This document shows, one piece after another, positions 7,901-64,000 of a stretch of 64,000 nucleotides of DNA. The stretch covers positions 844,175 to 908,174 of the forward strand of contig NC_087078.1 of NCBI RefSeq assembly GCF_026151205.1, written 5' to 3'. Under the pieces are notes generated by a model, which saw only the letters and a list, made by a program, of their open reading frames with translations, searched no databases and was not told the DNA's origin. The position numbers were made by a program, and so were the translations under genes. This stretch comes from Bolinopsis microptera (Eukaryota; Ctenophora; Tentaculata; Lobata; Bolinopsidae). The stretch's first letter is position 1; each line of letters begins with the position of its first letter.

Positions 7901-8013
7901 CCACAACGGAACATTTGAAATTGCTATCTGCTTTTCTTTCTTTCCAGGGAGTGTGCTGGTTGGACGTGAAGGTGCCCCCTGGATTGCCTGGTACCCCCAA
8001 TTGCTTCTACGCC

Positions 8014-9585: not shown

Positions 9586-9587
9586 AG

Positions 9588-10376: not shown

Positions 10377-10377
10377 T

Positions 10378-12143: not shown

Positions 12144-12149
12144 GATGAT

Positions 12150-17200: not shown

Positions 17201-17945
17201 TGAATATCTTCTAAGAACTTGGTCATATTAGATTCACAGTAGTCGTATTTTGGTTTACAAGGGTCAAGTTCTGGTTCTTCAGGCATGCTACATTCGAGAA
17301 TACAGAAAATTGGAGAGTGATGCGAAACCCTGGTATCCAGTAGTCCAGCTGACACAATATTGTCAGTGGAGTTTGTCAGAATATTGTCAATAAGCGATGG
17401 GACACAGCCTGGTTTATGGTGCGTTGCCAGTGATATAAGTGGGATGAAGTTATTTCCATATAAAATGTTTTCAAAGCTGGCAGAGCCTTTATTAAATAGA
17501 TTAAAGTTGAAATCTCCAAGCAGGATAACGTTCCTATCAGGAACCTGATTAAGAAGGCTCTCAAATTCGTGTAGGGCATCTTTGTCAGATCCACCAGGTG
17601 GTCTGTATAGGACGCCAACTGTTTGGGGCCTGCCAACATTTGTTATGGAGACAAACACTGATTCAAGGTTAGGGGTAAGTAAGTGACTCATTGATGTAAA
17701 TTCCCACTCCACTACCTTTAGATTTGTCACGTAATTTATTGGTGTATTCAGAGAGATAACCGGGTATCCTATACAGGTCTTTGAGGTTTGCATCAATATT
17801 TGTCTCAGCCAAGCCAATAAACGAGAGTGGATGACTGTACTGTGAGATTTCTGTGACAAATGTATCAAAATTTGCAGCATTTCCATCAATATTGTTAAAA
17901 ATACCAGTAAGGTTCTGCCCATTTCTATGTTGAAAGTATTAAAAG
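14258..17945 (-). mobile_element. LINE D (CR1/L2-like, related to LINE A), inserted in LINE C
   Basis: This minus-strand element begins within its endonuclease (5' truncation near 17945). It ends with two identical 20-bp tail units (core TACTTTGTTTTACT on its own strand) at 14297-14258. It is the youngest layer of the nest. Its 3' untranslated region is about 560 bp. RT motifs and the CARARP motif tie it to LINE A and LINE E. Confidence 0.85.
14857..17930 (-). CDS. LINE D ORF2: endonuclease (frameshifted N-part) and reverse transcriptase
   Basis: One frame is open from 17994 to 14857. From about 17680 down it encodes endonuclease (VGVLYRPPGGSDKDALHEF, LLGDFNFNLF, VSHHSPIF) and RT (YRPISILPIFGKIFEKVI, FIDLSKAFDTIDH, GVPQGSVLGPLLFLLYIND, LFADDTN). 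The family motif occurs twice (SSCARAREYG, ETCARARPYS). The true start of the nuclease is read in a different frame above about 17700 (NGQNLTGIFNNIDG, SFIGLAETNID, GSGVGIYIN), so one frameshift lies near 17700. The C-terminus ends in WLPLNSWGIEPA. Apart from that frameshift and the 5' truncation the protein looks whole. Confidence 0.88.
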
Positions 17946-17994
17946 TAATAGAGGTAACGGGGAAAATTTGTTGTCCTGTCTTCTGTCTCGTCAT

Positions 17995-20900: not shown

Positions 20901-21381
20901 CATATGGTCCCCTCAATCTGCAACTCATCTTCAACAGTTTGTTGCTATCCAAAAGAGGGCTATTAAATGGATCAATGGTGAACCCTACTCCAGTTATAAT
21001 GACGATAAACTTGCTACCGAGCAAAAGAAGCTAAATATTCTCCCTGTCATGCAGAAGTTTATTTATAACGATCTTATGACCTTCTATAAAATAGTGAATA
21101 GCATAATCCCAGTTTCGCTTCCTACTTATATAGTCCTATGCCGTCCAGAGGGCACCCGATACACTAGGCACAATGCTCAAATAATTGATAGGTCGGATAC
21201 TTCAACTTACATGAGTACCACTGTGCCCTGCTCAGATGCCTTCCGAAATAGCTTCTTTCATAGATCTATGCTGAAATGGAATAGTCTACCAGTATGTATC
21301 CGGCAGTCAGAGCGGATTTCTACTTTTAAGGCCAATCTGATCAAGTACCTATGGGCTGCCGATACAGTCTGGCCAGACTAG
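17995..21381 (+). CDS. LINE C ORF2: endonuclease and reverse transcriptase (intact frame)
   Basis: From the ATG at 17995 this is an open frame of about 1128 codons. A hydrophobic N-terminal stretch of roughly 140 residues precedes the nuclease, which starts near LSVVYNNVHGF and has IILNETWLK, HILVGDFNLA, THKSGNTLDLVFTN and MSDHFCITF. The RT has NKAPGPDGIHGKVLKNC, ENYRPISLTSLVMKVFE, QHGFVNERSC, YFDFAKAFDSVSH, GVPQGSILGPLLF and LYADDTK. The end has WSPQSATHLQQFVAIQKRAI and WNSLPVCIRQSERISTFK. All catalytic motifs look present. The hydrophobic leader may not be part of the working protein. Confidence 0.9.
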   Translation: MLCALLGLFYFYVILYIFSLTIDANILPSAPLQPKIHSVPCLRSSINLYFMVIFCTIFLRHFKLVYRGERGIGTALAAISVKLLSTTKTELSPTMSPKQTVKLLFGITSSWLGVMSRCGLVFLSLLNISLIVICNCSLLNPGPNLSVVYNNVHGFLNTRDLASGTPPLNMTKIHEFHGYIYKHKPHIIILNETWLKNSILSNEVLPDKYKVFRLDRSLRSHPVDATQPKKFRKNGGGVLIAHRTDIDISSLKFSKVSVQAELLSIIIKTQCGRNFCISTFYRVGTLGLDNFESFKKHFVTLASARKLQRHILVGDFNLASISWPDGQSSCQLHSSFVNFLTDDLGHTQLISSPTHKSGNTLDLVFTNIQNLIKNVKVLDQNEMCMSDHFCITFDIDVKTKYIKQPKRKIFNYSKGNFRGLNSELFSIDWDSIFGCNDPYLAWSRFRGVLEAACDRWIPKKTIKSQFKPPWYDSECDRLLRNKEKWRIRHKGSNSESHKQKFRAFRTKFKNMMDERMRLSVEDDSDDALISKKFWTYVKSKSKSTRIPETVKYHNRFRNNPSDQAALFNEYFYEQFSQESDYGIDIDFRDDCFSSLVFSKEDVLLILKKLNPNKAPGPDGIHGKVLKNCAQSLAYPLSVLFNQSFSSGCIPPDWKLALVVPVHKKGDKSSVENYRPISLTSLVMKVFERCIKTASYAACSDLLDDRQHGFVNERSCTTQMIPFTDNLALALNNRSRTDIIYFDFAKAFDSVSHDLILSKLKNIFNVDGLMLKFIKSYLEGRQQQVVIGGQTSSSLPVRSGVPQGSILGPLLFVIFINDMFSCVSEGTNIALYADDTKIWREILGYPDHHIIQNDINRLYDWSVRNRMKFHPQKCKALSVSLQRNVLDNLPFNTFFYKLSGSDIDFVPSQSDLGVAINSRFNWGAQCKALVSKANSRLGLLKRTCHFTTDKRQKRSFYLALIRSIFEHCSVIWSPQSATHLQQFVAIQKRAIKWINGEPYSSYNDDKLATEQKKLNILPVMQKFIYNDLMTFYKIVNSIIPVSLPTYIVLCRPEGTRYTRHNAQIIDRSDTSTYMSTTVPCSDAFRNSFFHRSMLKWNSLPVCIRQSERISTFKANLIKYLWAADTVWPD

Positions 21382-26389: not shown

Positions 26390-29300
26390 GGAACAGTGAG
26401 CTGCTTTTTCCCCTCTTTTCCCCGAAAACTACCCTACTCATTTCTCCCCAAACCGGAACAACCACTCCCGGGGCTAAAAAATTTTTAACCGCAAAAATAA
26501 AACAGCAAAATTTCCCTTTCGCTTAATCCATCTGCTGTAAAAATTTGCAAACCGGAAGATTTTTTTAAAACTTGTATGATTCAGCAATCTTTTTCTTTAG
26601 TTTGGTACTGTTACCCCCCCCCCCCAAAGGGCAGGGGTGCCGTTTTTGGTGCCTTGAAATACCCAAAGGCCCCGATATAAAAGACACTATCCAATATCAA
26701 ACCCCCACTCGGGTTCCCAAACCACGACCCTTTTTCGGTCGCCCTGTACCTCCCTTTTTTCCCCCCCCGGCAATTTAAACCTTTTCCCTTTCCCCTTTGG
26801 GGCCGGCCTTTTTCTTAAAAATGTTCATTTTGGCCCTCCACAAGATAACCAAGTTCCCATAATCTTTTGGGGCGGGAAACCTTTCCGTCCCAATAAAATT
26901 TTTTACTTCCCTTAAATTTTAAGAGTTTTATTTTAAACCCCTCAGCAAAATGTGCTAAATTTAATTTTACCCCATCCCTTCCCAAAACTTAATTTTTTAA
27001 AACTTTTTGGAAAAACTTAAAAACCAAAAATCCCCCCAATTTTCCCGGCCCATGGGAGGGGTTTGGGTGGGTGGCCGTACACAAAACTGGAAACCGAAAA
27101 CCCCCCAAAAAAGTAGCCCTACATCGTGTCGAACAAACATTGCATTTTCCCCTTTAATTTTAAATTAAAACAGAATTTTTAAATAAACCAAATTTTTTAA
27201 AATTTTAAAAAAGGTAGAATTTAATTCTATGGCATTTTTTTGAAATTTGTTTTTAAAAAAAGTTGAGAATTGGTTTCAATTCAAGAATATCACGATAATT
27301 TTGGGACCCCAAAACTGTTTCAGGGCACAATAAAGGGTCTAAAAGATATCCCTAATTTGATAAATTTTGGGTACCAATGCTATCATTTTCCCCCCTTTTT
27401 CAAAGTCGAGGTTTCCCCTCCCCCTAACCGGGGAAAAAATTTAAAATTGGGTTTTTCCTATTTGGGGAAACCCAAAATTTTTTACCCTAAAACCTCCAAT
27501 TTTTATTTTTTAATTTAATTACGGGCCCCCCAAATTAAAAACCAACCCAAACCCCTTCTTTATTTTTTGCCTAAAGGGGTTTACTTTTAACCCTTAATTA
27601 AAAAAAGCACCATTTTTGGCCCGAACCAAAAGATTAAAATTTTTTCCACCCGGGATATTAAAACAAAATAAAAGGGAAATTGGGCCAAAATTTATTTTTT
27701 TGCAAAACTTTTTTGGCCTTAAAAAAGCCCCGGGCCCCTTAAAATTTTGGCCCCTTTTAAAAATTTAATTTTGTTCCTGGTAGGGACTTAAACTAAGGAG
27801 GTAAAGGGGATTCCCCGGGAACCCGGGGGTCAAGTCACATTTTTCATCCCCCGGCCCGGCCCCGGGGACAAAATCTGGATTTTTAATGTTTTTTCCCCGG
27901 TCCGGCCCCCCCGGGGTTTTAATTCAGATTCTTGGGGTCCCGGGGGGAAAACATAAAATTAGGGGGAAAAATTTTAAAACCGGATTTTTACAAATTTTCA
28001 ATTACTGGACTTAAAGTTTTTATTTAAATTCCTTTAAATTTAATCTTTAAACAATGGGAACCAAAAAAACAATTTTAAAAATTTTTGTTAAACAATTAGG
28101 GTAAAAATTATTTTAATAACCAAAATTAAAGAAACATAATTTTAACTGGTTACCCCCCTTGTTCAAGGGAAAGGGGGAAAATGAAAACTGGAATTTTAAA
28201 AGGATTCCTTTAAAAATTGGGGAAAGGGAGGAAGGGGAGGGGGAACTTGAGTAAAAAGTAAAAGAAAAATATTGGTGGACATTCCCCTTTTGTTTTGGGT
28301 TTTTTAATTTGGGTTTTTTTTCTTTTAATAACTGGGGTTATTACATTAAAAAAAATTGTTTCAATTATAAAGTAAAGAAATTTGAGTTTAAAAATTTAGG
28401 GAAAAAACCTTTTTTTTTTTGGTGGTACCCCGGTAAATTTGGAAAATTGGGGGGGGGGATTGGGGTTTTTGGGGGGCCCCGGTAAGGAATGGGGGGAAAA
28501 AAGAAAATTTTGGCCCCCGTTCCCGGTAAATTGTTTAACCGTCCCGGGGAACCGGTCCCGTCCCGGGAAAGGGGGTAACCAGTTTTACCCGGGGGGTTTG
28601 GGGTGTCCGGGCCAAAAAAAATTTGTCCCGGCACCCTCCATTATAACCACGGGGGCGGGGGAAAAGGGGGTTAAATAAAACTTTTTGGGTTTTCTTTTTT
28701 TAAAAAAGGGAAGGGGGCTTTTTGGGGGGAAAATTTATTTTTAAATTTGGGAAATAATTGATCAGAAAAATTTTAATTAAATTCTGTTGGTTTTAAAAAT
28801 TTCTTTGGGGGTCGAAAAAAATTTAAAGGATATAAAAAATAATCCCTTTTGAAGGGGGGGAAATGGTGGTAAATAATTTTCCCTTAGTTTAAATTTAAAT
28901 TTAAAAATTTTTTTTAAAAAGGGGTTTTTGGGGGGGAAAATTTAACACAATTACAATTGTCTTTTTTCATTTCACTAAAAGGGGGGGGAAGATAGTTTCA
29001 TTGTTTTGGGGGAAATTTGGGGGTTTTAACCCATTTAAAAAATTTTTGGTTTAAGGGGGTTTTACTTTTTGGAAAATTACTGAATTAAAAATTTTTTTCT
29101 TAATTTAACCATTTTTTGAAAAAAGGAGGGGGGGCCTTAGAATTTTTAATTGGGGATTTAAGTTTGGAAATTTTTTGGGGAAATTTGTGTTTTTTGGGAG
29201 ATTAAATTAAACAAGGGGGGAAAAAATGGCCCCCAGCCCCCAAAATAATTTTAATTTTTAAAAAGTTTTTGTCTTTGGGGAATGTATTTATACAAAAACT

Positions 29301-31900
29301 TTTTTAAATTTTTTAAAAATTTTTATTTAAATTTGGGGGGGGGGGTTTAAAATTTTTGGGGGGGGGGATAGGGGGTTTTGATAGGGGTTTAATGAAAAAA
29401 TAAAAGGGGATTTGAGGGGGTTTTTTGGGAAGGGAAAAATTTTAAATAAAAAATTGGGGGTTTAGAAAAGGGGGAGGGGTTTGTGGGGGTGGAGGGTTTT
29501 TTTAGGGGTTTTAAAAAAATTTTAATTTGGGGGAAGGGGGAATTTTAAATTTTATTTGAGAAAATTATAAAATTATCCCTTTTTTTAAATTATTTAAGGG
29601 GGGGGGGGGATTGGTTTAAAATAGGGAAGAAATGGGGAAAAAATTTTAATTTTTTGGGGGGGGAAATTATTTGGTGGGGGGGTTGGGGGAGTTTTTGGGT
29701 TTTTATAATAGGGGGATTAATAATATTGTAAGTTTTAAAAGTTTGTTTTGGGTTAAAATTGGTTGGGTTTTGGGAGGGTAGGGGGATTTGTTTTTTATTT
29801 TAAGGGGGGAAGGGTTTTGTGGGAGAAGAGGGGGTTTTTTAAATTTTTGTTTTTTTGGGGAAGGGGGATTGTTTGGGAAGGGGGGGAATAAAAGGTTTTA
29901 AGAAGGGTTTGGGGTTTTTTGGGGGGGGATTTTTGGGGTAAAGGGGGAATTTTTTTGGGATTAATTAGGGGGTTAAGGGAAATTGTTGTAGGTTTGGGGG
30001 ATGGAAAAATTTAAGAAGGGGGATAGGGTTTTAAAGGGGAGGTGGTGTATTTGAGGTGGGGAAAAGGGGAATTTAAGGTGGGGGTGTTCCGGGTGAAGGA
30101 TTTTGGGGGGTTGGGGGGTTGGGGGTAGGGTGGGGGCTTTTGGGGTTGGGGGGGGTGGAGGGGTTTGGGATTTTTAAAAAGGGGGGTGGAATTTTTGAAT
30201 TTTTAAAGTTTTTTTTAAAAAAAAAAAAATATGGGGGGTATTTTAAATTTTTTTTAAATTGGGGTTGGGGGGGGGTTTGAGTTTAAATTTTATTTATAAA
30301 TAATTAAATTGGGGGGTTTGTGGTTTTATTTGTGTTTTGGGGGAATTGTTTTAAAGGGGGTTTTGGTTTAAAAAGGTTTAAGGTAATTAAGGTAAATTAA
30401 TTGGGGGTTTTTTAAGTATGGTTTAAATTTGGGGTTAAAAGGGTTTTTTTTAAAATAATTGGTTTGTTTTTGGTTAAATGATTTTAAAAATTTGTTTAAA
30501 AAAAATTTTTCAAAGATTTTTTAAATTTTTTTGGGCCCAAAAATTAAGGGTTGAAAAAAAAAGGAATTTTTTTTGGGAAAAAATCCCCGGCAAAAAACCA
30601 AAAAACCCCGGGCCCGTACCAGTATCCCGGGAAACAAAACGCCAAATACCAAACCGGTTTTTCCGGCAGCCCCCGGTTTTCCCCGGCCCGAGTTTTCTGA
30701 GCCCCAAATTTTTAATCTATTTCTCGTGAAAATTTTAGATCAAAAACAGAAACAAAATTTAAATTTAATAAAAAGGTTTAAAATTATAGGAAATTAAAAA
30801 AAAATTGGGACAATCATTTTTTTAATGGTCCCAATTTTTTACGAAAAAAAAGGGGGTTAATAAAATTTAAAAACACATTTAATATAAAACTTTTAAGAAA
30901 AACATTTTTTTTTTTTCCTGCATTGTACTCAAAAATTTTAAATAGTAAAAAATTATAAAAAAAACCACTTTTCTATTTGAAACGGGGAGCTGTTTGGTAA
31001 ACAACCGTCGCTAAAACATCGACTTTTACAACAACCAAATTTTTAAAAACAAACACATACATTCTCACATTTGGAGGACAAAACTTCATCACAAGAAAAA
31101 AAAGGCCTTTGGTAAAAAAGTATTTTTTTTTCTTTTCACTGACTTGGGTTAAATGATTTCCCATATTTTCACAAAAAATTACGTCGGGTCAAAAAAGGGG
31201 GTTTGGGTTTGGGTGAAATTTAAACTCGGGGCCAGGGGGCCCCCCCCCCCCCCTTTTTTTTGGGAATTTTTTCCACATAAGAAAAATTGCCAAATAAAAA
31301 AATTTTCCCTAAATTCTGGACAGTTACCTAATTACCTTAAACAAGTATTTCTTCAGTCAGTCTTCTATAACCACGAGAAAAAAAAAGCGGGGCAAAAAAA
31401 TTTTGGGAGACGGCGAACGGGGAACACCCCAAATTTGAAGACAGTGGCTGCTGAGTGCTGACCTGCATAAAAATCTATCAGCATCAGTAACTTCAAAACG
31501 GGGAAAAAAACCTCCATTTCATTTCCGACAACTACACCTGTTTTTCCCTAGTTTTTCCCAAATATTAAGTAACTGCATTAGTTTGGGTTTAAATTTTTAA
31601 AAGGGCCCCTACATCGAACAACCCTAAAAATTAAAATTTAAATGCAAGAGTGCACAATTTATCACAAACAAATTTTTCCCCTTTTTTAAATTCTAATCAA
31701 CCCCCGGGTTTTTCGTCTTTTTTTTCCCCCCAATCGGGCGATAATCAGAAATTTCATAAACCTCTCCCACTCTAACTTCGAGATTTTTCCCAAAAGGGTT
31801 TCCCCAAACGTTTTTAAATTTATATCAAAATTTTTTTTTTGAACATAAATCTATTGGGGGTTCACCCAACCCTATTTTTGGCCCACAGGTAACAAATTAC
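26390..31900. other. Homopolymer-dominated, strand-asymmetric stretch; probable poor-quality consensus
   Basis: Almost all of this stretch is built from runs of 3-9 identical bases. From 26.4 to 28.6 kb both C and G runs are common. From about 28.7 to 30.5 kb the plus strand has almost no C and is full of G and T runs; C runs return after 30.57 kb. Ordinary mixed sequence returns gradually near 31.9 kb. Open frames here have only G/K/F/P-type composition forced by the runs and are not genes. The pattern is unlike any known repeat and fits uncorrected low-coverage long-read consensus best. Confidence 0.7.
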
Positions 31901-43810: not shown

Positions 43811-46800
43811 ATGGTTCCAACTCGACTACTCCTCCTCGCTGTTCTCGTTGCTGTTGTCAAGATAACAGATGGGAACGGTAAAAGCAAATGGACTGACCCG
43901 TCACTAAACACGCCTGAACAGAATGAACGGGTTTTAGAGGAAGTTCGACAGGGTCTCCACAAAGACCATGGACATGAACACGATCACGGACACGATCACC
44001 ATGGCCACGATCACGGACACGACCATGGGCACGATCATGGACACGATCATGGACACGACCATGGACATGATCACGGACATGATCACGGACAGGATCACGG
44101 ACATGATCATCACCACGAAGCTCCTGCGGAACCAGAAAATGTTTGGCTCAAAGCATTTGGGGCCACTATACTTATATCATTAGCTCCTTTCCTTGTTTTA
44201 TACCTCATTCCTATCGACAGAAAAAACAAAGAACAAGAAAACTTCCTTAAAGTTCTACTCGCATTTGCCTCTGGGGGATTATTAGGTTGGTAAGTAATTT
44301 TACTAACTTCATTTTGATTGCTAAATTCAGAACCTTGAAATTGCAACAAACGTCATCGAATCAAATCAATGACCAAAGCTGGTTTTATTTAATGTAAAAG
44401 TAAGATTAGTTCCAATTATCAGCCCACCGACATGACCATTAATTTCTTCCCGGTTCAATATTTTCTTTCAATCTGTGTATTTTAACCAAACACTTCTTCA
44501 TTGATAATTTTATTTTTCAGGAGATGCGTTCCTTCACCTTATACCTCATGCCATATCACCGCATAGTCATGGAGGTTAGTAGACAATTAACATCTTATCA
44601 ATTCTTATCTCTTTTTTACTATGTCTGTTGAGACTTTGTAATAGTTCCCTCAGTCGAGCTATCAATTACGTAATTTTTAGCCGATTTAGGAAATTCTTTG
44701 CAGTTTGCTAAAATAGAAATTATAGAAGCTCAGAGCTGCATTAATTGCATTCCAATACTATCGAGTATCGGCTACAATACTAGCCACTACATTCCATAGC
44801 ATGCACGAACTTGCAGCCGTAGTATTACTGTGTAGCTATAATAGTATTTCAAGTTTGTGAGGTTTTGTAATGAACTAAATTACTCATACCTCTAGACACA
44901 AGCTGTCAAAATATAGAAAGGGAAATACCTGTAGAAAGGGAAATACCTCAATCTAGAGAGAAACAGTCCTGTGAAACCTGTTTCTAGTTAATAATCCTGG
45001 ACACTGTAACACGTGTGTCACAGTGTAACACGTGACACTAAACACAGTGTAACACAGTGTGACACTGTGACACGTGTGTCACAGTGGGACGCCACGTGTA
45101 ACACAGTGGGACGCCACGTGTAACACAGTGGGACGCCACGTGTAACACAGTGGGACGCCACGTGTAACACAGTGGGACGCCACGTGTAACACAGTGGGAC
45201 GCCACGTGTAACACAGTGGGACGCCACGTGTAACACAGTGGGACGCCACGTGTAACACAGTGGGACGCCACGTGTAACACAGTGGGACGCCACGTGTAAC
45301 ACAGTGGGACGCCACGTGTAACACAGTGGGACGCCACGTGTAACACAGTGGGACGCCACGTGTAACACAGTGGGACGCCACGTGTAACACAGTGGGACGC
45401 CACGTGTAACACAGTGGGACGCCACGTGTAACACAGTGGGACGCCACGTGTAACACAGTGGGACGCCACGTGTAACACAGTGGGACGCCACGTGTAACAC
45501 AGTGGGACGCCACGTGTAACACAGTGGGACGCCACGTGTAACACAGTGGGACGCCACGTGTAACACAGTGGGACGCCACGTGTAACACAGTGGGACGCCA
45601 CGTGTAACACAGTGGGACGCCACGTGTAACACAGTGGGACGCCACGTGTAACACAGTGGGACGCCACGTGTAACACAGTGGGACGCCACGTGTAACACAG
45701 TGGGACGCCACGTGTAACACAGTGGGACGCCACGTGTAACACAGTGGGACGCCACGTGTAACACAGTGGGACGCCACGTGTAACACAGTGGGACGCCACG
45801 TGTAACTTCATGACCAGTCCAGTGTATACTTTACAGAAAATGTTCAGTTAGATTTCCCAGATTTAGCCGGTCGTATTGTGTGACCAGTTTTAGCCGGTCG
45901 TATTGTGTGACCAGTTTTAGCCGGTGGTATTGTGTGACCAGTTTTAGCCGGTCGTATTGTGTGACCAGTTTTAGCCGGTGGTATTGTGTGACCAGATTTA
46001 GCCGGTCGTATTGTGTGACCAGTTTTAGCCGGTCGTATTGTGTGACCAGTTTTAGCCGGTGGTATTGTGTGACCAGTTTTAGCCGGTCGTATTGTGTGAC
46101 CAGTTTTAGCCGGTCGTATTGTGTGACCAGTTTTAGCCGGTCGTATTGTGTGACCAGTTTTAGCCGGTCGTATTGTGTGACCAGTTTTAGCCGGTCGTAT
46201 TGTGTGACCAGTTTTAGCCGGTCGTATTGTGTGACCAGTTTTAGCCGGTCGTATTGTGTGACCAGTTTTAGCCGGTCGTATTGTGTGACCAGTTTTAGCC
46301 GGTCGTATTGTGTGACCAGTTTTAGCCGGTCGTATTGTGTGACCAGTTTTAGCCGGTCGTATTGTGTGACCAGTTTTAGCCGGTCGTATTGTGTGACCAG
46401 TTTTAGCCGGTCGTATTGTGTGACCAGTTTTAGCCGGTCGTATTGTGTGACCAGTTTTAGCCGGTCGTATTGTGTGACCAGTTTTAGCCGGTCGTATTGT
46501 GTGACCAGTTTTAGCCGGTCGTATTGTGTGACCAGTTTTAGCCGGTCGTATTGTGTGACCAGTTTTAGCCGGTCGTATTGTGTGACCAGTTTTAGCCGGT
46601 CGTATTGTGTGACCAGTTTTAGCCGGTCGTATTGTGTGACCAGTTTTAGCCGGTCGTATTGTGTGACCAGTTTTAGCCGGTCGTATTGTGTGACCAGTTT
46701 TAGCCGGTCGTATTGTGTGACCAGTTTTAGCCGGTCGTATTGTGTGACCAGTTTTAGCCGGTCGTATTGTGTGACCAGTTTTAGCCGGTCGTATTGTGTG

Positions 46801-49800
46801 ACCAGTTTTAGCCGGTCGTATTGTTTGACCAGTTTTAGCCGGTCGTATTGTGTGACCAGTTTTAGCCGGTCGTATTGTGTGACCAGTTTTAGCCGGTCGT
46901 ATTGTGTGACCAGTTTTAGCCGGTCGTATTGTGTGACCAGTTTGACCACACCCTCTGAAGGCTTCTGTAAGGGAGCCTTTTATACCAAGCTTGGACAGTA
47001 TGAGCTCAGTTATGTGTTTTGTAAATTGCTCAATGCTCTTTGACTATATAAGAATAAAAGCTGACTCGAAAATGGGACTTTCCCACCCCTCATTTCACAA
47101 TAAGGGAAATAAGGGACATTTCAAGATCACCTGAAATGCGGTTATATTTTGCAATCCTCAGCCAGTCAAAGCTACATATTACACATATATTATGTTTGTT
47201 ATACAATGTATAAATGTATGTTCAGTTTAGATTCGGATGATAACGTGTTGTTACTAATCTGGCCACGCCCCAACGAGATAAGAAATTGATCTAATGAGTA
47301 AGCTCAGGAGAGTACAACATCATCTGAGTTATATGTTTTACTAAATGCTTATTTAATAGTTCTTCACTTGTAGATCAGGTACTACAAGTTATTCAGATAG
47401 TCACTACAAGAACTACAAGCGAAGAAATATTAAATAAAAAGGGGTTCCAACGAGAACATTTTGTCTAGTTTTCTCTGATAATTACTTTTATACCATTGTA
47501 TGTAGATTATAGTGTACTGTAAACATAGTACTACGCTCTGACTCTATAGTTATTAAGGAGAACATCTTAATTCTTCGTATTAACTTTACTACAGCCCTGT
47601 TTTTACTCAACAACAGTTCCACTGTATCTGTTTAATAACACTACACGTTATGTAATGTTACATCACACGTGCTGTGACGTCATCACACGTGCTGTGACGT
47701 CACCATCCTACACACCATCCACACAATAGCTAAATCTTTTAAACCTGTATGTAACATTACACGAGCTTTAGGAGCCTGCGTCATTCAACACATGCTGCTA
47801 ACGCTTACTTTTACTTCTGCTGTTTAGTGTTCAGCTGAACTTAAGGTAGTTCCCCGGAATATAACTAAACATGTGACGTCATCACACGTGCTGTGACGTC
47901 ATCACACGTGCTGTGACGTCATCACAATCAAAACTAAACAACAATATTAGCACTCTCGCGTGTTAGATCGAAATGTGTGTGTGAAGATTGCGTGTAACCA
48001 AACAATTGGAAGTTATGATACTTTGAAAGTTTAGTTTAGTTACATATAGAATAATAATCTAGAACTAGGAACCCTTGCTGCTGCTAGTAGTTGTCCACAC
48101 ACAATAGGTGTTGTGTTGCAGAGGGCGGCTCTGTTTAGTTATCCTTGTCAATCAATTCCTTAAGTAGATTTTTAAACATATTTCCAGCTAACATTGCTGA
48201 ATAGTTGTTACTGTGGGACTGTAGAATCAGGTTCCATATCGATTAGGACTTAAATTTTACTCACCAGCATTTGATTTTCTGATGCTACACTATGTACGTA
48301 ATTATAGTCTGTAATTTATGCTAGCAAACTTACGTCACGATTTCTGCTATTTAGTATTCTGCTATTTAGTAATATGTACTCAATTTCTTTGTTTCAGATC
48401 ACGACCACGCACACGACCACGCACACGACCACGCACACGACCATGGACACGACCATGGCCATTCTCACGGAGCCGAAATGGCCGTTGGAATGTGGACGCT
48501 TGGTGGAATACTTACATTCTTGCTTATAGAGAAGTTTGTGATCGCAATAAAGGGAGGACACTCACACAGCCACGGGTAATTAATTAGTGAACTACTCATT
48601 AATTAGCGAACTATCAATTAATTAGTGAACTACTATATAAGGATTAAGTTTGCAATTAAGGAACTTTGCTTTATGTTGGGAGTGCTGTCTCGGGCGACTC
48701 TGTCAATTGGACATGCATGCAACATTTCTAATTGCTGTTCCGAAAGAGAATAATAGCAACGTCCACTAAGATGTAGTATACCCAATACCCATGTGTATAG
48801 TACCTATGTCAAGTAAGTAGTAACCCTGTGTAAAGTGTGGTAAACCTATGTCAAGTAAGTAGTAACCCTGCGGCTACTGGCTTAGTATTCTACACTTGTT
48901 GGACATGTCAGTGATGGGTTTATAAGCTTAAGCAACCAAACCTGAGAGCAATTGTTACGTGTCCTAAACAAATATACTCCTGCGAGAAACTTAGGCAAGG
49001 TGGAGTCCAACTTCAATTCTAAAATCAATTTGATCCTTTTTCATCTAACAGAAATTGAGGTGGCACCTAATTATGTATCTGGTATTTTTGACTCAAACCT
49101 TGCACGTTAGTTTGTAATGCTATCCTTAGATACAAAATGGGAGGCCGACCCTTTGTCGTGCAGCCTACAAAATGATGAGTCACCTCTATTTTGTTTCATC
49201 GTTACGTTTGCTAGTGATCAGGTGATATAATATCTTTATCTTACAGGCCGGTAGCACCTGTAGAAACACCTAAAGAAGCTAAGAAGAAGGAGAAAGACTC
49301 AGATGATGAAAGTGATGAAAAAGAAGAGAAGGAAGATGAGAAGATAGAAGAACCAGGTACTGATCAATATTACTCATCAGGATCATACCACTCCCACCGC
49401 CGCGCTAATTACGCTTCGGTCAAACGGTCGAAAAAGGTCTTTTAATCTCGATCGTTGGAACCAACAGTTGCGCTTCCTACCTAACATTACAACTTTCATG
49501 GTATGTTGGGCAAGCATAGTATACAGGTAAATATATGTGCTTGCATACACCCCACAGTGGGCTGTGAGTGGGGGTCATGCTAGCATAGGGTATTTTAGAC
49601 CATCACACATGCCCCTAACTTTGTTTCTAAGGTAATTTGGGTACAAAAATACGATTCCAATCATTTACAGGGCAGAAAATGTCTCAGAAAAAATTTTTGG
49701 GCCGATTTTGAGCAATCTTGTAGTCCAAAAATAGGAGGCTGATCCCAGGAAAAGTTGTTTTTTTAGAGGTTTAATCAATTTTAAAGCTCTTCTATGAACT

Positions 49801-52800
49801 GTAAACGAAGGACAGCTATCTTAGGAACTCAAATCTTTTTGAATTATGAAAAAATATTGATCAGAACAAAAGTTGTGCCCATTTATATGACCAAAATTTT
49901 CTGAAACACCAAAATTGTTCCTGTTATTTTCAAAAATTTCGTTTAAAATCACGATTTTTTGGATTTTTATCAATTTTAACTATAATAATTGTGATATTTT
50001 GATTTTTCATCCATATGCATCTGGTCTAGGATGCAAAAAATGCCACAAACATGGAGAATAACTAAAATATGTCAATTTAATAGCAAAATTGAGCTCATAA
50101 ATTATCTAAAAATGCAGCAAATTTTACCCAATTTTTGAGTTTCTTAATTTTGTAAACAGAGTTCCCCCAAAAGTGCCCAAAGTGATTCTTATTGCATCTG
50201 ATAGGGAATTGTCTAAGCTTTCTGATGATACCATGCATTATACCGAACTATTGCAAACCAACAACGATTTCTGTCGTTAAATACCCCAAAAATTGCCTAA
50301 AATACACGCCATAAAAAAGGCGCGGTCAAAAATCAGGTGAAAATGTTAAAGTCACACATTTTTTTTTAGATGGCTGAGTATTCTTAAGTACTATACTATA
50401 TTTCAATTATTAAAAACTGCCTTGATCAGGCATTTTAGCCCAAAATAATAAATATTAGGCAATTTTTGGCTAAAAAAGGCAAAATTTCTTGACAGTGAAA
50501 AATGCTATTTTTTCACGCGACGCCATTTTGGCATCTTGCAAAGTTTTTAATTACGGTTTCTTGCATGAAATCGGGCTAGCGTTTTACAATAAGGAAAGCT
50601 TATTTTCAAAGAAATTTAAGAAAGTCGATTTTAGGCCTATGCTAGCATGGTAGCCCACTGTGCACCCGCCACTTGACACGCTGGCCTCTGGGACACAACC
50701 CGTCGCAGTTTCCGCCATATTCGTTCTCGAAGTTTCTACTCGATCGCTTACAGACAGGACTGCGTTTAGCATTTCGTGACGCGCGCAATTTGCGCGCGCT
50801 CGTAAACTGGATTGCTACTTGTATGAAAATATGTGCGTGTACAAACCGTTGAAATTCCGATGTAGGATTACGAGTTAGATTACTAGTACAGACAGATCCG
50901 TCTGAAAAAATCGATTTGCCGACACACAAAGCTTACAAAGGATTTTTGACGTTTTTGAGTCCTAATAGATGTCCTTTATGGCTGACCAACTTTTCCAAAC
51001 TTTTCCACGTGTCTTAAGGCCACTTTTTGCCACTTTACCACTTTTTACCACCTTTCTTGTTTGTCGAATATCTTTAGTTGTGAACATCGTAAAAGGTTGC
51101 GGATCAATCGAGTGTGTTCATATTACCATGAAGAAAAACTTTTGTTCTAGCAATTTTTACGTCAGATAATCATTTAATTGGATAATTATCAATTACTATT
51201 AGCTAATTAGCAAAATTCTAAAAATTTTTATTGGCTCAAAATGATCGGAATAGCTTAAAACACGGAGAAAAGTAGTTTTTAGAAAAACTTTGAAAATTTT
51301 TCACTTACATTTTTTTTCGAGACTTGGAAAAATTTCGAAAATTCAAAAAAAAATTTTCCGCCAAAAGTGATCAAATCGCATGAAACGCGGAGAAAAATGC
51401 TTTTCAAAAAAACTTAGTGAATTTTTCGTTTCAAGAATACTTAAATCACCAATATTTGTAGTTGGAGTTCAGTAAATCGCGGCAGATTTTAGTAATCAGG
51501 AATTAATAAGTGGAAAGGTATGAAACTGAAAAACGTTAACCATACGATATAAGAGTTTCATAACTAATTACAATACAGCCTTATCGATTTTCACAGAAAC
51601 TGCACCAATGGCACAGTCAAGATCGAAAGACGAAACGATAGCCTGCTGTACTATCATTTTATTGACTTCAATGATGAATCAGTGGGGTTAAGATAATCAC
51701 ATTTGTAATGAATAAAACCTCTCTGTACCGTCAATTGTGCTAATCTAAACCGGCCTACCTGGATTACCAGACCTCTTCTTTTCCTCAACAATCAAACCAA
51801 GTTGTTCATATAGTATTTGGTGGGCGATGTAAGTACTTATCGAGCTGTATTCAATCACAATACGACACAATACGTGTATATTATATGGCTCTTAATGAGG
51901 TTTATGAAACGCTTAATACCGTGAGAAACCCGGTATAGAGACGTTTTACAGTTTATCACGAAAACGTATACTTGGCCTCATGGCTCATTTACAGTTCGAA
52001 GAAGGCAAGAACAGACCAGGGAAACTAAGGAACAGCCAGATCCAGGAAGCAAGTGTAAATACACCTTCCAACATCTACTGTGACTTGTTTTGTATTGTAC
52101 TGCATACCGCTTCATTTGCTATGCGGTATAAAATCACCCCCATATGTCAGGGTCGGCTAAAAGTAAAATCAACAAGGGTAACATACGGGCAAGGATAAGA
52201 TTTAGATACGAGCGTCGGGCAAGGGGTAGTAAAGAACCGGTAATAATTCATTCAGTAAAATGTTCCACGAGGGCCATAATATAATATACACGTATTGCAT
52301 TGTGTCGTATTGTGATTGAATACAGCTCGATATGTACTTACATCGCCCACCAAATGCGATATGAACAACTTGGCTTGATTGTTGAGGAAAAGAAGAGGTC
52401 TGGTAATACAAAACAAGTCACAGTAGATGTTGGAAGGTGTATTTACACTTGCTTCCTGGATCTGGCTGTTCCTTAGTTTCCCTGGTCTGTTCTTGCCTTC
52501 TTCGAACTGTAAATGAGCCATGAGGCCAAGTATACGTTTTCGTGATAAACTGTAAAACGTCTCTATACCGGGTTTCTCACGGTATTAAGCGTTTCATAAA
52601 CCTCATTAAGAGCCATATAATATACACGTATTGTGTCGTATTGTGATTGAATACAGCTCGATAAGTACTTACATCGCCCACCAAATACTATATGAACAAC
52701 TTGGTTTGATTGTTGAGGAAAAGAAGAGGTCTGGTAATCCAGGTAGGCCGGTTTAGATTAGCACAATTGACGGTACAGAGAGGTTTTATTCATTACAAAT

Positions 52801-55800
52801 GTGATTATCTTAACCCCACTGATTCATCATTGAAGTCAATAAAATGATAGTACAGCAGGCTATCGTTTCGTCTTTCGATCTTGACTGTGCCATTGGTGCA
52901 GTTTCTGTGAAAATCGATAAGGCTGTATTGTAATTAGTTATGAAACTCTTATATCGTATGGTTAACGTTTTTCAGTTTCATACCTTTCCACTTATTAATT
53001 CCTGATTACTAAAATCTGCCGCGATTTACTGAACTCCAACTACAAATATTGGTGATTTAAGTATTCTTGAAACGAAAAATTCACTAAGTTTTTTTGAAAA
53101 GCATTTTTCTCCGCGTTTCATGCGATTTGATCACTTTTGGCGGAAATTTTTTTTTGAATTTTCGAAATTTTTCCAAGTCTCGAAAAAAAATGTAAGTGAA
53201 AAATTTTCAAAGTTTTTCTAAAAACTACTTTTCTCCGTGTTTTAAGCTATTCCGATCATTTTGAGCCAATAAAAAATTTTTAGAATTTTGCTAATTAGCT
53301 AATTGATAATTATCCAATTAAATGATTATCTGACGTAAAAATTGCTAGAACAAAAGTTTTTCTTCATGGTAATATGAACACACTCGATTGATCCGCAACC
53401 TTTTACGATGTTCACAACTAAAGATATTCGACAAACAAGAAAGGTGGTAAAAAGTGGTAAAGTGGCAAAAAGTGGCCTTAAGACACGTGGAAAAGTTTGG
53501 AAAAGTTGGTCAGCCATAAAGGACATCTATTAGGACTCAAAAACGTCAAAAATCCTTTGTAAGCTTTGTGTGTCGGCAAATCGATTTTTTCAGACGGATC
53601 TGTCTGTACTATACGAGTGTTCAGCCTTCTTGTGGCTTCATCACTGTTAAAAGTATTGGATCTGAGAATTATGATTGTATTTTAACAAATGTACACAAGC
53701 TTTTAAGCGCGAAGAATCTTGCTAATAACCTCTGAAGGTATAATTACCGTGTTTTTCAGAAGAACCACACAGAGAGGTAAAAGTGTCTGCTTACCTAAAC
53801 ATGGCAGCTGATATGACGCACAATTTCACGGACGGGCTAGCTATCGGTATGTTTTAAACTGATTCTTGTAAAATTAGCTTATCTTCGTTCAGTTCCCACC
53901 AAAACACGAGGTGATGAGATATCTGATGTACACATTGCTTTCTAGCATTTACTAAGCCGCAAATTTGATTTCGTACAGAGAGTTTGATATCCCTCACTCT
54001 CCCAGGCTCCTCCTTCTTAATAAGCGATAAGATGGGATACATCACTACATTCCTTATCTTGGTACACGAAATACCTCATGAGATCGGTGACTTTGCTATC
54101 CTTGTACAATCTGGATTTACCAAGAGTGATGCTATGAACTTCCAGGTATGCGATCTAATCCTGTGTTTCTCAGACTGATAAATATTTTCTGTTGTGATCT
54201 GATTTAAAGGCTCTAACTCTGTTAGAAATATCTGATAACGGTCGTCTTACGAGCCTACATTAAATGTAATTATACCAAATGGCTCATATCGTTCACTTGC
54301 AGAAAGTGGAAGTTTAAGATGTGGCAATAACTAGTAATACTGACGTTTGACATATAAACGGACCTCTAAATATTCCTCTTAGCCCAAATGTCAGATATAT
54401 TTTATGTTACTACTATAACATCTATATATATTATATACCTGACACAAACATATTGTAACATCTTCCCATTTCCAGTTGTTAACAGCCCTTGTAACATCTT
54501 CCCATTTCCAGTTGTTAACAGCCCTTGTAACATCTTCCCATTTCCAGTTGTTAACAGCCCTTGTAACATCTTCCCATTTCCAGTTGTTAACAGCCCTTAT
54601 AACATCTTCCCATTTCCAGTTGTTAACAGCCCTTATAACATCTTCCCATTTCCAGTTGTTAACAGCCCTTGTAACATCTTCCCATTTCCAGTTGTTAACA
54701 GCCCTTGTAACATCTTCCCATTTCCAGTTGTTAACAGCCCTTATAACATCTTCCCATTTCCAGTTGTTAACAGCCCTTATAACATCTTCCCATTTCCAGT
54801 TGTTAACAGCCCTTGTAACATCTTCCCATTTCCAGTTGTTAACAGCCCTTATAACATCTTCCCATTTCCAGTTGTTAACAGCCCTTGTAACATCTTCCCA
54901 TTTCAGTTGTTAACAGCCCTTATAACATCTTCCCATTTCCAGTTGTTAACAGCCCTTGTAACATTTTCCCATTTCCAGTTGTTAACAGCCCTTGTAACAT
55001 CTTCCCATTTCCAGTTGTTAACAGCCCTTATAACATCTTCCTATTTCCAGTTGTTAACAGCCCTTGTAACATCTTCCCAATTCCAGTTGTTAACAGCCCT
55101 TGTAACATCTTCCCATTTCCAGTTGTTAACAGCCCTTATAACATCTTCCCATTTCCAGTTGTTAACAGCCCTTGTAACACCTTCCCATTTCCAGTTGTTA
55201 ACAGCCCTTGTAACATCTTCCCAATTCCAGTTGTTAACAGCCCTTGTAACATCTTCCCATTTCCAGTTGTTAACAGCCCTTGTAACACCTTCCCATTTCC
55301 AGTTGTTAACAGCCCTTGTAACATCTTCCCATTTCCAGTTGTTAACAGCCCTTATAACATCTTCCCATTTCCAGTTGTTAACAGCCCTTATAACATCTTC
55401 CCATTTCCAGTTGTTAACAGCCCTTGTAACATCTTCCCATTTCCAGTTGTTAACAGCCCTTGTAACATCTTCCCATTTCCAGTTGTTAACAGCCCTTGTA
55501 ACATCTTCCCATTTCCAGTTGTTAACAGCCCTTGTAACATCTTCCCATTTCCAGTTGTTAACAGCCCTTGTAACATCTTCCCAATTCCAGTTGTTAACAG
55601 CCCTTATAACATCTTCCCATTTCCAGTTGTTAACAGCCCTTATAACATCTTCCCATTTCCAGTTGTTAACAGCCCTTATAACATCTTCCCATTTCCAGTT
55701 GTTAACAGCCCTTGGTGCTCTAGTAGGAACTGCTGGAGGGTTACTCGCTGAGAGTTTCTTCGCTTCCGCTTCCCTGTTCATCTTGCCCTTCACTGCAGGT

Positions 55801-56095
55801 ATTTTATTACACTTTATACAGTTGTGGAGCTCTTTAATGGGCTCGGAAAAACGATTAGGTTGCTTGTATCTCAATCTCTATATTACTGTAAAGCACTTAC
55901 ACCGGGACAGTCAACTCTTGCTTACTCTGCTCTAGCTAATTTTACCTTATTTCAGGTGGATTTATATACATAGCGACAGTAACTGTCCTGCCTGAGTTGC
56001 TGCATGGAGGTTCCTCGCTGTGGCAAGGAGTAAAGGAGATATCAGCTCTGACAGTTGGAATCGGAATCATGGTTTTAATCGCAGAGTATGAGTAG
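43811..56095 (+). CDS. SLC39A7: Zinc transporter ZIP7 (SLC39A7/KE4/Catsup type), eight exons
   Basis: Exons: 43811-44285, 44521-44574, 48398-48575, 49247-49356, 53760-53846, 54006-54145, 55699-55798, 55956-56095. All phases fit and give 427 residues (human about 469). ZIP7 releases Zn2+ from the ER/Golgi into the cytosol. The start has a signal peptide ([15 protein letters not shown]), then a lumenal His-rich repeat of HDHGHDHG type, a first membrane helix ([20 protein letters not shown]), [11 protein letters not shown], a second His-rich loop, an acidic Lys/Glu loop (exon 4), [10 protein letters not shown], the signature [51 protein letters not shown] and a final IMVLIAEYE. The HNFTDG and HEIPHE metal site is complete. 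Acceptors are YAG; donors are GT. Exon 1 uses GTTGGT, four bases before a better GTAAGT that would break the frame. Introns 2, 4 and 6 hold large repeats and elements. Confidence 0.95.
44286..44520 (+). other. ZIP7 intron 1
   Basis: Short intron with a tandem donor (GTTGGTAAGT) and acceptor TTATTTTTCAG. Nothing else is visible. Confidence 0.8.
45000..45079 (+). repeat. Imperfect GTGTCACAGTG/CACGTG repeats next to the 22-bp array
   Basis: Irregular short palindromes of ACACGTGTGTCACAGTG type precede the ordered array and look like its seed or decayed edge. Confidence 0.6.
45080..45805 (+). repeat. 22-bp minisatellite, 33 perfect-looking units, in ZIP7 intron 2
   Basis: The unit is CACAGTGGGACGCCACGTG plus TAA, repeated 33 times without visible change (726 bp). 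Each unit holds the E-box CACGTG and the string CACAGTGGG. Because 22 is not a multiple of three, all three minus-strand frames read the same repeated peptide; these are not genes. The uniformity means recent expansion or active homogenisation. Confidence 0.97.
45859..46938 (+). repeat. 27-bp minisatellite, 40 units, in ZIP7 intron 2
   Basis: The unit has TAGCCGGTCGTATTGTGTG followed by ACCAGTTT. Exactly 40 units fit (1080 bp). Variant units (GGTGGTATT, AGATTTAGCC) cluster in the first eight; one TTTGACC variant lies near 46825. Since 27 is a multiple of three, long frames stay open on both strands by chance; they are not genes. Confidence 0.97.
46939..47660 (+). other. ZIP7 intron 2, middle part
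   Basis: No gene or known repeat. Ordinary AT-rich intron sequence. Confidence 0.4.
47661..47702 (+). promoter_or_regulatory. CRE/E-box-like cluster 1 (two TGACGTCA)
   Basis: Two 20-bp units hold TGACGTCA at 47675-47682 and 47695-47702, alternating with CACACGTGCTG. TGACGTCA is the consensus site of CREB/ATF-type bZIP factors. Confidence 0.5.
47871..47927 (+). promoter_or_regulatory. CRE/E-box-like cluster 2 (three TGACGTCA)
   Basis: TGACGTCA at 47874-47881, 47894-47901 and 47914-47921, exactly 20 bp apart with CACACGTGCTG between. The repeat is the same unit as in cluster 1, so the sites may reflect local duplication as much as regulation. Confidence 0.5.
48576..49246 (+). other. ZIP7 intron 3
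   Basis: Contains short local duplications (AACCTATGTCAAGTAAGTAG-like, 48797-48870). No other feature. Confidence 0.5.
49553..50662. mobile_element. Non-autonomous DNA transposon with CACAGTG ends (Transib/RAG-like)
   Basis: The left end reads CACAGTGGGCT, then 12 bases, then CATGCTAGCATAGG (49553-49589). The right end, read inward on the minus strand, has the same CACAGTGGGCT, then two bases, then CATGCTAGCATAGG (50662-50636). The flanks are CACCC on both sides (49548-49552 and 50663-50667), a 5-bp target duplication. CACWRTG-type ends with 5-bp GC-rich duplications are typical of Transib and ProtoRAG transposons. The interior is AT-rich with no transposase frame, so mobility would need a helper. 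It lies in ZIP7 intron 4. Confidence 0.65.
50663..50883 (+). other. ZIP7 intron 4, spacer with GC-rich segment
   Basis: Short GC-richer stretch (GTGACGCGCGCAATTTGCGC at 50778) between the transposon and the palindrome. No gene. Confidence 0.35.
50884..53611. repeat. 2.7-kb inverted repeat (palindrome) in ZIP7 intron 4
   Basis: The arms 50884 to about 52093 and about 52408 to 53611 are near-identical in reverse; position pairs sum to about 104495-104501. The arm ends carry ACAGACAGATCCGTCTG, a small palindrome of its own. TA flanks both ends (TA-GTACAGACAG and CTGTCTGTAC-TA), as for TA-target elements. The 315-bp centre holds a third copy (52260-52405) of a segment that is also in both arms. 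No protein domain was recognised in the arms; matching frames on opposite strands are mirror copies. Confidence 0.85.
54146..55698 (+). other. ZIP7 intron 6, mostly splice-site minisatellite
   Basis: About 300 bp of ordinary intron (54146-54452) is followed by the 36-bp array, which runs right into exon 7. Confidence 0.85.
54453..55714 (+). repeat. SLC39A7: 36-bp minisatellite made of the exon 7 splice acceptor, about 35 copies
   Basis: Each unit has a pyrimidine tract with TCTTCCCATTTCCAG, followed by TTGTTAACAGCCCTT, the first 15 bases of exon 7 (codons LLTAL). The genuine exon start is 55699; 34 upstream copies begin at 54476 and on. One unit, ending at 54906, is a base short. The 22 acceptors from 54907 onward are in frame with exon 7 (36 = 12 codons) and open throughout. 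The 12 acceptors before it run into a stop at 54911-54913. Some units carry CTT-GTAACA after the exon-like part, others CTT-ATAACA. Confidence 0.95.
55799..55955 (+). other. ZIP7 intron 7
   Basis: Short intron with donor GTATTT and acceptor TTATTTCAG. No other feature. Confidence 0.85.
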
Positions 56096-61973: not shown

Positions 61974-64000
61974 TTACAATACAGAGTACTGTCTCAGTTC
62001 ACTAGGAAGTGTCCCTTTTTCTAACACCTCACGCAACAAAGACGAAGATGCACCAGCCTTTGTCAAACAGTCTGCAAGCTGGAGATTTGTTGGAACCCAC
62101 ACATAACGTACTTCATTTCTGTTGAATCGTTGTCTTAGACAAGCCATGGGAATCCTCAACCCTTTGTCTTCAAGGGTGTTTGTTGTTTTCACAGCATCAA
62201 AGAGAGACTTGCAATCCGTTATACAGACTATAGGAACATCTATTTTCACAATTTCATTCCACTGCGCTTTAATCAGCTCAGCAGACTCCAGGCCGTCAAC
62301 TAATGCCCAACTTTCAGCAGCTAATGTGCTCTTACATACTTTCTTTATCTTTCTACTCTGCCATGTAAGTGGACAGCACTGACCAGATCGGTCAACCATC
62401 AATACAAGATGCCCACCTTGTGAGGATCCATCAGCCAGGTTACCAAAGGAAGCATCACTGAATACAACCATTGTTGTGTGTTGAAGGTCAAGTGAAGGAA
62501 ACCTGATTGACAGTGGGTTTTTCTGCATAAACACAATTGTCTTGTTCACCAGTTTCAGATCTTTGATCGTTCCCGAAGCATAGGAGTTGGATGCAATGCA
62601 TGTGCCATACGCAATATCTGGTCGTGACTGTGTTGCTGCCCAGAGCAGCTGTCCTGCTACTGATCGCAACTGACTTCTTTCTGCCTCATTGATTGGACAT
62701 GCATTCAGTTTTACTTTGTTCTGGTCGATTTTGATTCTGCTCACTTGATTTACATAACCCAGCTGTGATATTTTGATTGCCCTGTAACTTTGACTGAGAT
62801 CGAGCCCAGTGTACGTAAAGGATGTATCGACTTCCATACTGAGCTTGTATTTCATTTTTAAGGCACCAATGACCTCTTTGATGAATATTTCCAGTCCTCC
62901 AAACATAAGATCATCAACATGGATCACTATGATCCCACACGGCTTATCATTTCTCTGTAAAAAGAAAAATGATTCATCGTACACTGACACTGTTACACCA
63001 AGCTCTACTAGGGTATCTCTTAGTTCGACATACCACATTCTTGGACCATCGACCAAGCCATAGATGCATTTGAGGAGTTTCCACAATTTTCCAGATACCT
63101 TAGCTTCATTTGGTGGTTTAATGTATACTGTTCTTGAGATATCTTTTCCCTGTAGAAAAGCAGCCTGTACATCAATGTGCTGCAGTTTCCAATGCTCTGC
63201 TTGCAAAAGAGTAATTGCCAATCTGATTGAGTCCCTACTGCATGTTGGGGAATCTGATCGTATTGCTTGATTTTTCTCCTGATAGCCTAGAGCAACTAAC
63301 CGTGCCTTGTACACATTCGTGGTATTCTTTATCTTCTTTGTGATTACCCACCTCACACCAATCGTTTTCTGACCTTCATCAGGAACTTCCTCATAGACTT
63401 TATTGGTACAAAACTTTTCAAGCTCTGCCTCCTTAGCATCAACAATTGCTTGTTCACATGAATCTGTAACGCTTGTAAACATAACTTCATGTTCCTGCTC
63501 CTCTTCTGTATCTTCGTGCCATTCCTCTGTTAACTCAAACCAGTCGACACAATGAGTTTCTTCCTCCCCATCAAGCTGAATGTTCAGGCAGTTTTTGTAT
63601 TTTCCTCCAGCCTTACCTGCTCTACTAAGGATGTAAGCCTTCTCCCAGACATCCTCTTCTCCCTCTTCAGGGTACTTGGGTTTGTACATCACAGAAGTTT
63701 TCGTCTTAGGCAGGTTTTTATTTCCATTACCATTAACACTGGCTGTGCTTACAGGAGCACTAGAAGGAGTATCTATTTCATCAGTTATTTGCGCCTGAGC
63801 CAATGGCAAACTGTCATTTTCATCCAGATTTCTTTCTTCTGTTCTTGTCATATTTTTCTCAAAGTCAGATAATTCATCATCGTTCGATTCTGAAGGAGCT
63901 TTGACACTGACGGGATCACTTTTGTCCTTCAAATTACCAGTTTCTTCTAATTCAGGGACATATGTTGGCTTAATGTGACAAGGATGTACCTTGATGATTT
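61974..64000 (-). mobile_element. Ty1/copia-type LTR retrotransposon, pol end (continues beyond the right edge)
   Basis: This fossil element lies on the minus strand. The visible part starts at the right edge with the end of the integrase region, then a linker, then a copia-type reverse transcriptase (VRWVITKKIKN, VDVQAAFLQG-like HIDVQAAFLQ, YGLVDGPRMW, IIVIHVDDLM) and a copia-type RNase H (VVFSDASFGN, AAESWALVDGLESA, ITDCKSLFDAV). The family looks like the GalEa-type copia elements of aquatic animals. The frame seen is open, which suggests a fairly young copy; gag, protease and most of integrase lie outside the window, and its LTRs were not identified. Confidence 0.85.

Follow-up and report, generated by a model that had tools for sequence, protein, structure and literature searches.

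How a conserved gene could be spliced normally when one of its introns ends in 35 near-identical acceptors is the question raised by the gene for a ZIP7 (SLC39A7-like) zinc transporter in the ctenophore Bolinopsis microptera. In the 64,000-nucleotide stretch of DNA analyzed here (the window, to which all coordinates refer unless a contig is named), a 36-bp tandem array of 35 units occupies positions 54453-55714 of the forward strand and runs across the boundary between intron 6 and exon 7. The array is a minisatellite whose unit holds a complete splice acceptor together with the start of an exon, and what is remarkable about it is that 34 decoy acceptors, each with its AG intact, persist in a conserved gene. 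We favor the reading that the array is an acceptor-side 'mirage', normally spliced out whole to the native acceptor at 55699 and near neutral, and we put the probability of this reading at about 0.77.

The host gene lies on the forward strand at 43811-56095, and its model comprises eight coding exons (43811-44285, 44521-44574, 48398-48575, 49247-49356, 53760-53846, 54006-54145, 55699-55798, and 55956-56095). The spliced model encodes 427 aa without an inner stop, and the Pfam Zip domain covers residues 111-424 as one stretch (E = 1.7e-71). The donor of exon 1 was picked by frame, which gave gttggt and not the stronger-looking gtaagt four bases on. The protein contains His-rich stretches, the motif HEIPHEIGD, and another 10-residue motif, which we take to be marks of ZIP7 rather than of another ZIP. 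A genome search for other Zip-family exons gave 24 matches, with 113 of 202 candidates scored. Exon 6 (54006-54145) carries the HEIPHEIGD motif and ends in ...SDAMNFQ. It is followed by intron 6 (54146-55698), a phase 0 gt...ag intron, 1553 nt long with the native acceptor and 330 nt long with the first decoy AG, that falls between residues 348 and 349 (Q348/L349) of the protein. The start of exon 7 (55699-55798) is placed by the gene model and by the alignment of a bacterial ZIP of known structure in the PDB, which passes through Q348/L349 without insertion in a match that is weak overall (E = 0.0005).

Other repeats were also found in this gene. Two more minisatellites adjoin in intron 2, at 45071-45806 (22 bp x 33.5 copies, 99%) and 45857-46943 (27 bp x 40.3 copies, 98%), and ZIP7 thus contains three large arrays. 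Intron 4 holds, at 50884-53611, a long near-perfect inverted repeat with 308 nt between its inner arms (50884-51195/53300-53611, 100%; 51220-51365/53135-53280, 97%; 51329-52096/52405-53172, 99%), which looks like a young foldback-type element. Additionally, His/Asp-rich coding repeats of 12 bp were identified at 48398-48455 and 43978-44109, and the former, in exon 3, starts two bases past the acceptor and includes no intron sequence.

TRF described the array in intron 6 with a period of 36, 35.1 copies, 97% matches, and a score of 2377. When the array was split unit by unit, each unit proved to consist of 21 nt from the 3' end of intron 6 and the opening 15 nt of exon 7. By direct count, this exon fragment, TTGTTAACAGCCCTT, is present in 35 exact copies, the first at 54476 and the last at 55699, and these alternate with 35 intron fragments, 34 of them 21 nt long and one 20 nt long. 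All 35 units keep an intact AG. Acceptor number 35, at the start of exon 7, is native, and hence the array contains 34 decoys and one native site. These results agree with a preliminary description of the window, which had counted about 34 in-line decoys of the exon 7 boundary and had placed the pyrimidine tract, the acceptor CAG, and the first 15 coding bases of exon 7 in a 36-bp unit.

Variation among the units is confined to the intron-derived part, which occurs in seven versions (15, 12, 3, 2, 1, 1, and 1 copies) and has six variable positions. Position 1 is G or A (22 G, 13 A), and the other substitutions are T/C at 7, C/T at 8, C/T at 13, and T/A at 15. The sixth variant is the loss of one C from the CC at 18-19, which leaves one C before the AG; by the unit split and the frame check it belongs to unit 13, whose intron fragment (54887-54906) is the short one of 20 nt. 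The AG and the word TTAAC are invariant across the array. Thus, 0 of 15 exon-derived sites vary, compared with 6 of 21 intron-derived sites (one-sided p = 0.028, in a post hoc test), and the invariance of the exon-derived 15 nt could hint, and only hint, that the decoys are under selection. Neither end of the array is divergent, the opening unit belonging to the most frequent type (15 of 35) and the closing unit to the next most frequent (12 of 35), but the whole array is 97% uniform.

The array stands at a single place in the assembly. Two units with the exon start were compared with the 264.65-Mb assembly and gave 17 matches, every one within the array; very common words were skipped in this search and scoring was limited to the best candidates, among which no second copy of the array was found. 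Retrocopies of ZIP7 mRNA that might record the spliced form were also sought, and the spliced DNA of exons 5-8 gave four matches, which were the four exons themselves at 100% identity.

Minisatellites, counted as arrays with a period of 7-100 and at least 5 copies, are widespread in this genome. They were present in 7 of 13 ten-kb stretches taken 200 kb from contig starts, where they made up 13.5% of bases, mostly in two stretches, and in 3 of 8 four-kb mid-contig stretches (2.6%), and they account for 5.0% of the 64-kb window. Because minisatellites are common in the genome, an array that reaches an exon edge would need no special cause. Three TTTYCAG words spaced 20-50 nt apart gave 934 + 633 matches, while the reversed pattern gave 135 + 234; these are matches and not array counts, one long array being counted many times and much of the excess coming from a few long arrays in the listed part. 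The matches listed (contig C1 and the first 0.91 Mb of contig C2) were grouped as 13 places, and 11 stretches around 10 of them were inspected, leaving out C1:1986224, C1:10039000, and C1:25580811. No evident exon boundary was seen, by eye in three-frame translations, at the 10 inspected places, which are a small and non-random part of the pattern. At one of them, C1:6601331, TRF reported no array.

Several other features were identified in the window. The stretch 28001-30000 has a GC skew of 0.61 and only short TRF rows, and at 28600-30300 G-runs alternate with stretches rich in T and A, and C is scarce on the forward strand; its origin may be biological or an error of assembly. Two reverse-transcriptase frames with RVT_1 domains lie head to head at 14860-17997 (reverse strand) and 17911-21378 (forward strand), with endonuclease matches, the one in the first frame falling below the Pfam cut-off. 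An RVT_2 frame at 61974-63998 (reverse strand) is presumably Copia-like. An open frame at 7873-9687 (forward strand) has a 2OG-Fe(II) oxygenase domain (Pfam 2OG-FeII_Oxy_2, E 1.7e-16) and is possibly retroelement cargo; the frames downstream of it, at 10375-13067, look reverse transcriptase-like by eye.

The reading frame was checked for all 34 decoys. Use of decoys 13-34 (22 sites) would keep the frame, add 12n residues, and rejoin the normal end of ZIP7. Decoys 1-12 are out of frame and run across the 35-bp unit into a stop codon at 54911-54913, which lies 887 nt upstream of the point where exon 7 ends. This stop was pinned directly for decoys 1 and 12, and the predicted protein lengths for decoys 1-12 drop by 12 each, so that it is common to all twelve. 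Both halves of the earlier account therefore held, namely in-frame insertions of 12n residues from the last 22 decoys and truncation of the 12 upstream ones by a one-base-short unit. Transcripts from decoys 1-12 would be expected to undergo nonsense-mediated decay. The frame break hangs on a single missing base in the CC run of unit 13; the assembled copy does contain this 35-bp, out-of-frame unit, but an error of assembly could have produced it.

The decoys closely resemble the native acceptor. Eleven of the 34 are identical to it from -23 to +15, and four from -60 to +15. A script identified a branch-point-like word (yUnAy), CTGAC, at 54439-54443, upstream of the array and not repeated; its A precedes the end of the first decoy acceptor by 33 nt, and this word is the probable original branch site. 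Within the unit, the sole yUnAy word is TTAAC, found once per unit in the exon-derived part, and in the copy in unit 34 (55666-55670), which may act as a branch site, the A precedes the end of the native acceptor by 29 nt. A branch-like word, a pyrimidine tract, and an AG are consequently present in each unit, and every unit appears self-sufficient because the exon start itself supplies the branch-like TTAAC. A second AG in the unit, directly after TTAAC, is probably too close to the branch word to serve. As had been proposed at the outset, a donor-like GTAACA follows some acceptors by 15 bases: GT stands directly after the 15-nt exon fragment in 21 of 34 decoys, and it opens 22 of the 35 intron fragments, the lower figure coming from a fixed offset that misreads the short unit. 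This donor is weak, since it is preceded by CTT whereas G occupies -1 in all seven donors of the gene model. A new intron opened by a unit GT would have only 21 nt before the next acceptor, less than splicing in animals would require. Every one of the five substitution sites in the units alters the would-be residue (V/I, S/P, S/F, H/Y, and H/Q), and in this small sample of predicted residues no protein-level constraint on the would-be insert is visible.

Arrays of this architecture have been called mirages in amphioxus, and the original report on them is said to be that of Canestro et al. in 2002. In amphioxus, a mirage is a tandem duplication of an intron-exon boundary, and the units of the BflGb6 mirage, which number 6 in one haplotype and 3 in another, combine the 3' end of an intron with the 5' portion of the exon behind it (PMC3087553). 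RT-PCR suggests that regular splicing of BflGb6 is undisturbed, and the same authors considered that repeated AG/GT signals could be cryptic sites giving alternative, possibly aberrant, transcripts (PMC3087553). Like the amphioxus mirages, the ZIP7 array has tandem units that straddle an intron-exon boundary, many with splice signals (AG in 35 of 35 units, GT in 22 of 35). It differs in dimensions, with a 36-bp unit that is a multiple of three and occurs 35 times, as against 150-160 bp and 6 and 3 units in BflGb6 and 10-72 bp units in Adh3 (PMC3087553). The 35 copies exceed the 3 and 6 of BflGb6, that acceptor-side case alone being compared. In addition, the host is a ctenophore, an animal distant from amphioxus. 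Mirages of the amphioxus type are also characterized by lengths that differ between haplotypes or tissues and by homogenization of the inner units but not of those at the boundary. The amphioxus parallel makes it plausible that the copy number in ZIP7 varies between individuals as well.

Two further systems bear on duplicated acceptors. When a beta-globin 3' splice site was duplicated with 14, 55, or 205 nt of exon behind the first copy, only the distal site was spliced, and very inefficiently, according to a passage that also refers to exon length as reported elsewhere to affect 3' splice site choice (PMC5389562). In potato, an intron gain backed by RNA-seq reads has been described in an RNA-dependent RNA polymerase gene, by tandem duplication across an intron-exon boundary (PMC4974935). 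As in ZIP7, the duplicated potato segment runs from the intron end into the exon, with an acceptor, a pyrimidine tract, and a putative branch site. The potato case has one duplication and a new intron, whereas ZIP7 has 34 extra copies and a weak GT.

Donor-side minisatellites form a separate class. The human gene IFI6 (6-16) contains a splice-donor minisatellite with a 12-bp unit, reportedly described by Turri et al. in 1995. It offers several usable splice sites per transcript, and two downstream units are reported to serve as donors (PMC4526556). The IFI6 array is of donor type with reported use, whereas the ZIP7 array is of acceptor type with candidate decoy sites. In intron 18 of human ABCA7, a VNTR with a 25-bp unit and about 12 to 427 copies gives an isoform that retains one unit (PMC5954066). 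Like the ZIP7 array, it lies at an exon edge and its unit includes an authentic splice site; it differs in that it repeats a donor, that retention of one unit breaks the frame, and that it reaches about 427 copies rather than 35. Assignment to the donor-type class (IFI6, ABCA7) was rejected, as the ZIP7 array holds the acceptor of intron 6 and its GTs follow CTT. Likewise, NAGNAG and tandem alternative acceptors, which are defined by sites a few bases apart, do not describe sites that are spaced 36 nt apart (35 once) and have a pyrimidine tract each. A search of the open-licence literature gave no paper that was, by its title, about ctenophore minisatellites, and the text of a Mnemiopsis genome paper contains neither 'minisatellite' nor 'tandem repeat' (PMC13231562).

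We propose that the minisatellite arose through tandem duplication of the intron-exon boundary. The first duplication would have copied 21 nt of intron end and 15 nt of exon 7 between ends that share a 3-nt TTG microhomology; the first unit opens with TTGTAAC and the bases past the last unit are TTGGTGC, with 3 nt in common. Slippage or unequal exchange could later have lifted the copy number to 35. The spliceosome most likely pairs exon 6 with the last acceptor, because the main part of exon 7, with its donor, follows only 55699, whereas each decoy is followed by 15 nt of exon and then by another unit. The array would then leave with the intron, and rare use of a decoy would produce 12n-residue insertions or decayed transcripts. 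By analogy, the amphioxus and beta-globin cases both favor the last, native acceptor. The preference required of the native site nevertheless places, under simple models, a strong demand on the mirage reading: if sites are taken first come, first served, half of the messages would be normal only if each decoy is taken at about 2% or less, and if all compete equally, the native site needs a 34-fold advantage. The array might also lower ZIP7 expression, and beta-globin is not a clean parallel.

The main alternative is that decoys are used, the 22 in-frame acceptors yielding a ladder of ZIP7 proteins lengthened by 12n residues between 348 and 349, possibly with individual variation. The unit length divisible by three, the lack of an in-frame stop in the unit, the return of decoys 13-34 to the ZIP7 end, the presence of AG, pyrimidine tract, and TTAAC in every unit, and the 11 decoys that match the native site exactly from -23 to +15 are consistent with such use. 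A period divisible by three has, however, a one-in-three chance of arising, the five non-synonymous substitution sites give no sign of a conserved insert, the bacterial ZIP aligns (weakly) without one, and regular splicing is reported as undisturbed for the amphioxus mirages in the material cited (PMC3087553). We regard the ladder as improbable, and appreciable use of the 22 in-frame decoys, with a ladder that shifts with copy number between individuals, as slightly less probable still, although it would make the minisatellite a length dial for a zinc transporter. The related proposal of the preliminary description, that the array creates length-variable ZIP7 isoforms or buffers splice noise, gained no positive support; the out-of-frame 35-bp unit (if it is not an assembly error), the insertion-free bacterial alignment (itself weak), the five non-synonymous sites (a small sample), and the regular splicing reported with amphioxus mirages, in the portion cited (PMC3087553), all speak against it. 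A different use of the decoys would be as poison acceptors, in which decoys 1-12 lead to premature stops and decay and the copy number or a splicing factor sets the level of ZIP7. These twelve are the decoys nearest the donor and CTGAC, and all lead to the stop at 54911 far upstream of the exon 7 end (887 nt), and duplicated 3' splice sites were spliced very inefficiently in the published construct, as far as it is described (PMC5389562). Yet the stop depends on one base missing from the CC run of unit 13. The Bolinopsis microptera assembly described in PMC10232365 was made, in the section concerned, with wtdbg and short-read polishing, and a one-base error within the repeat is possible if the present assembly is that one; the annotation of Bolinopsis drew on Iso-Seq, according to the same paper. 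Such a device is accordingly quite unlikely, more so than the ladder in either form.

Base pairing between units has also been weighed, with decoys hidden two by two from the 5' end so that the odd number of 35 would free the native site. The word GUUGUUAACAGC, which spans the splice junction, is self-complementary with G-U pairs, which allows neighboring units to fold into 12-bp hairpins whose loop holds the pyrimidine tract. A two-unit hairpin is predicted at -12.3 kcal/mol, and six tiled units reach -34.8, whereas tiled shuffled units average -18.3; an equally low value came from 20 of 500 shuffles, which is weak. The last five copies with exon 7 have z = -3.0, with 0 of 200 shuffles as low, for shuffles that break the repeat. 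In the partition function, however, GUUGUUAACAGC is 94-100% paired in all 35 copies, the native one included, at every span limit tried. Because all 35 copies are about equally paired, structure would give no acceptor preference at equilibrium, and selective hiding of decoys was rejected; self-pairing of the array might still affect splicing, but the two-by-two scheme is very improbable. Equally improbable is an assembly artefact, whether in the array as a whole or in its number of copies. Assemblers have difficulty with long tandem arrays, but ordinary long reads exceed the 1.26 kb of this one, its units differ at six positions irregularly and not as block copies, and the exon 7 directly behind it matches one place only. 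A precedent for such an error is the BflGb6 mirage, which appeared aberrantly assembled in the draft amphioxus genome, as noted in that report (PMC3087553).

Taken together, the array is most likely harmless repeat growth confined to an intron; a function is possible, and nothing points to one. We would call the array an acceptor-side mirage, a known kind of structure that occurs here probably in a new phylum. The presence of mirages in a ctenophore would mean that they are not a peculiarity of cephalochordates and can arise in very distant animals. Moreover, the locus is a natural 35-way contest among near-identical 3' splice sites, which share a nearly equal branch-like word, tract, and AG and differ mainly in their order and in the sequence downstream. 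Junction use in this gene could therefore separate choice of the first site after the donor from choice of the site next to the real exon.
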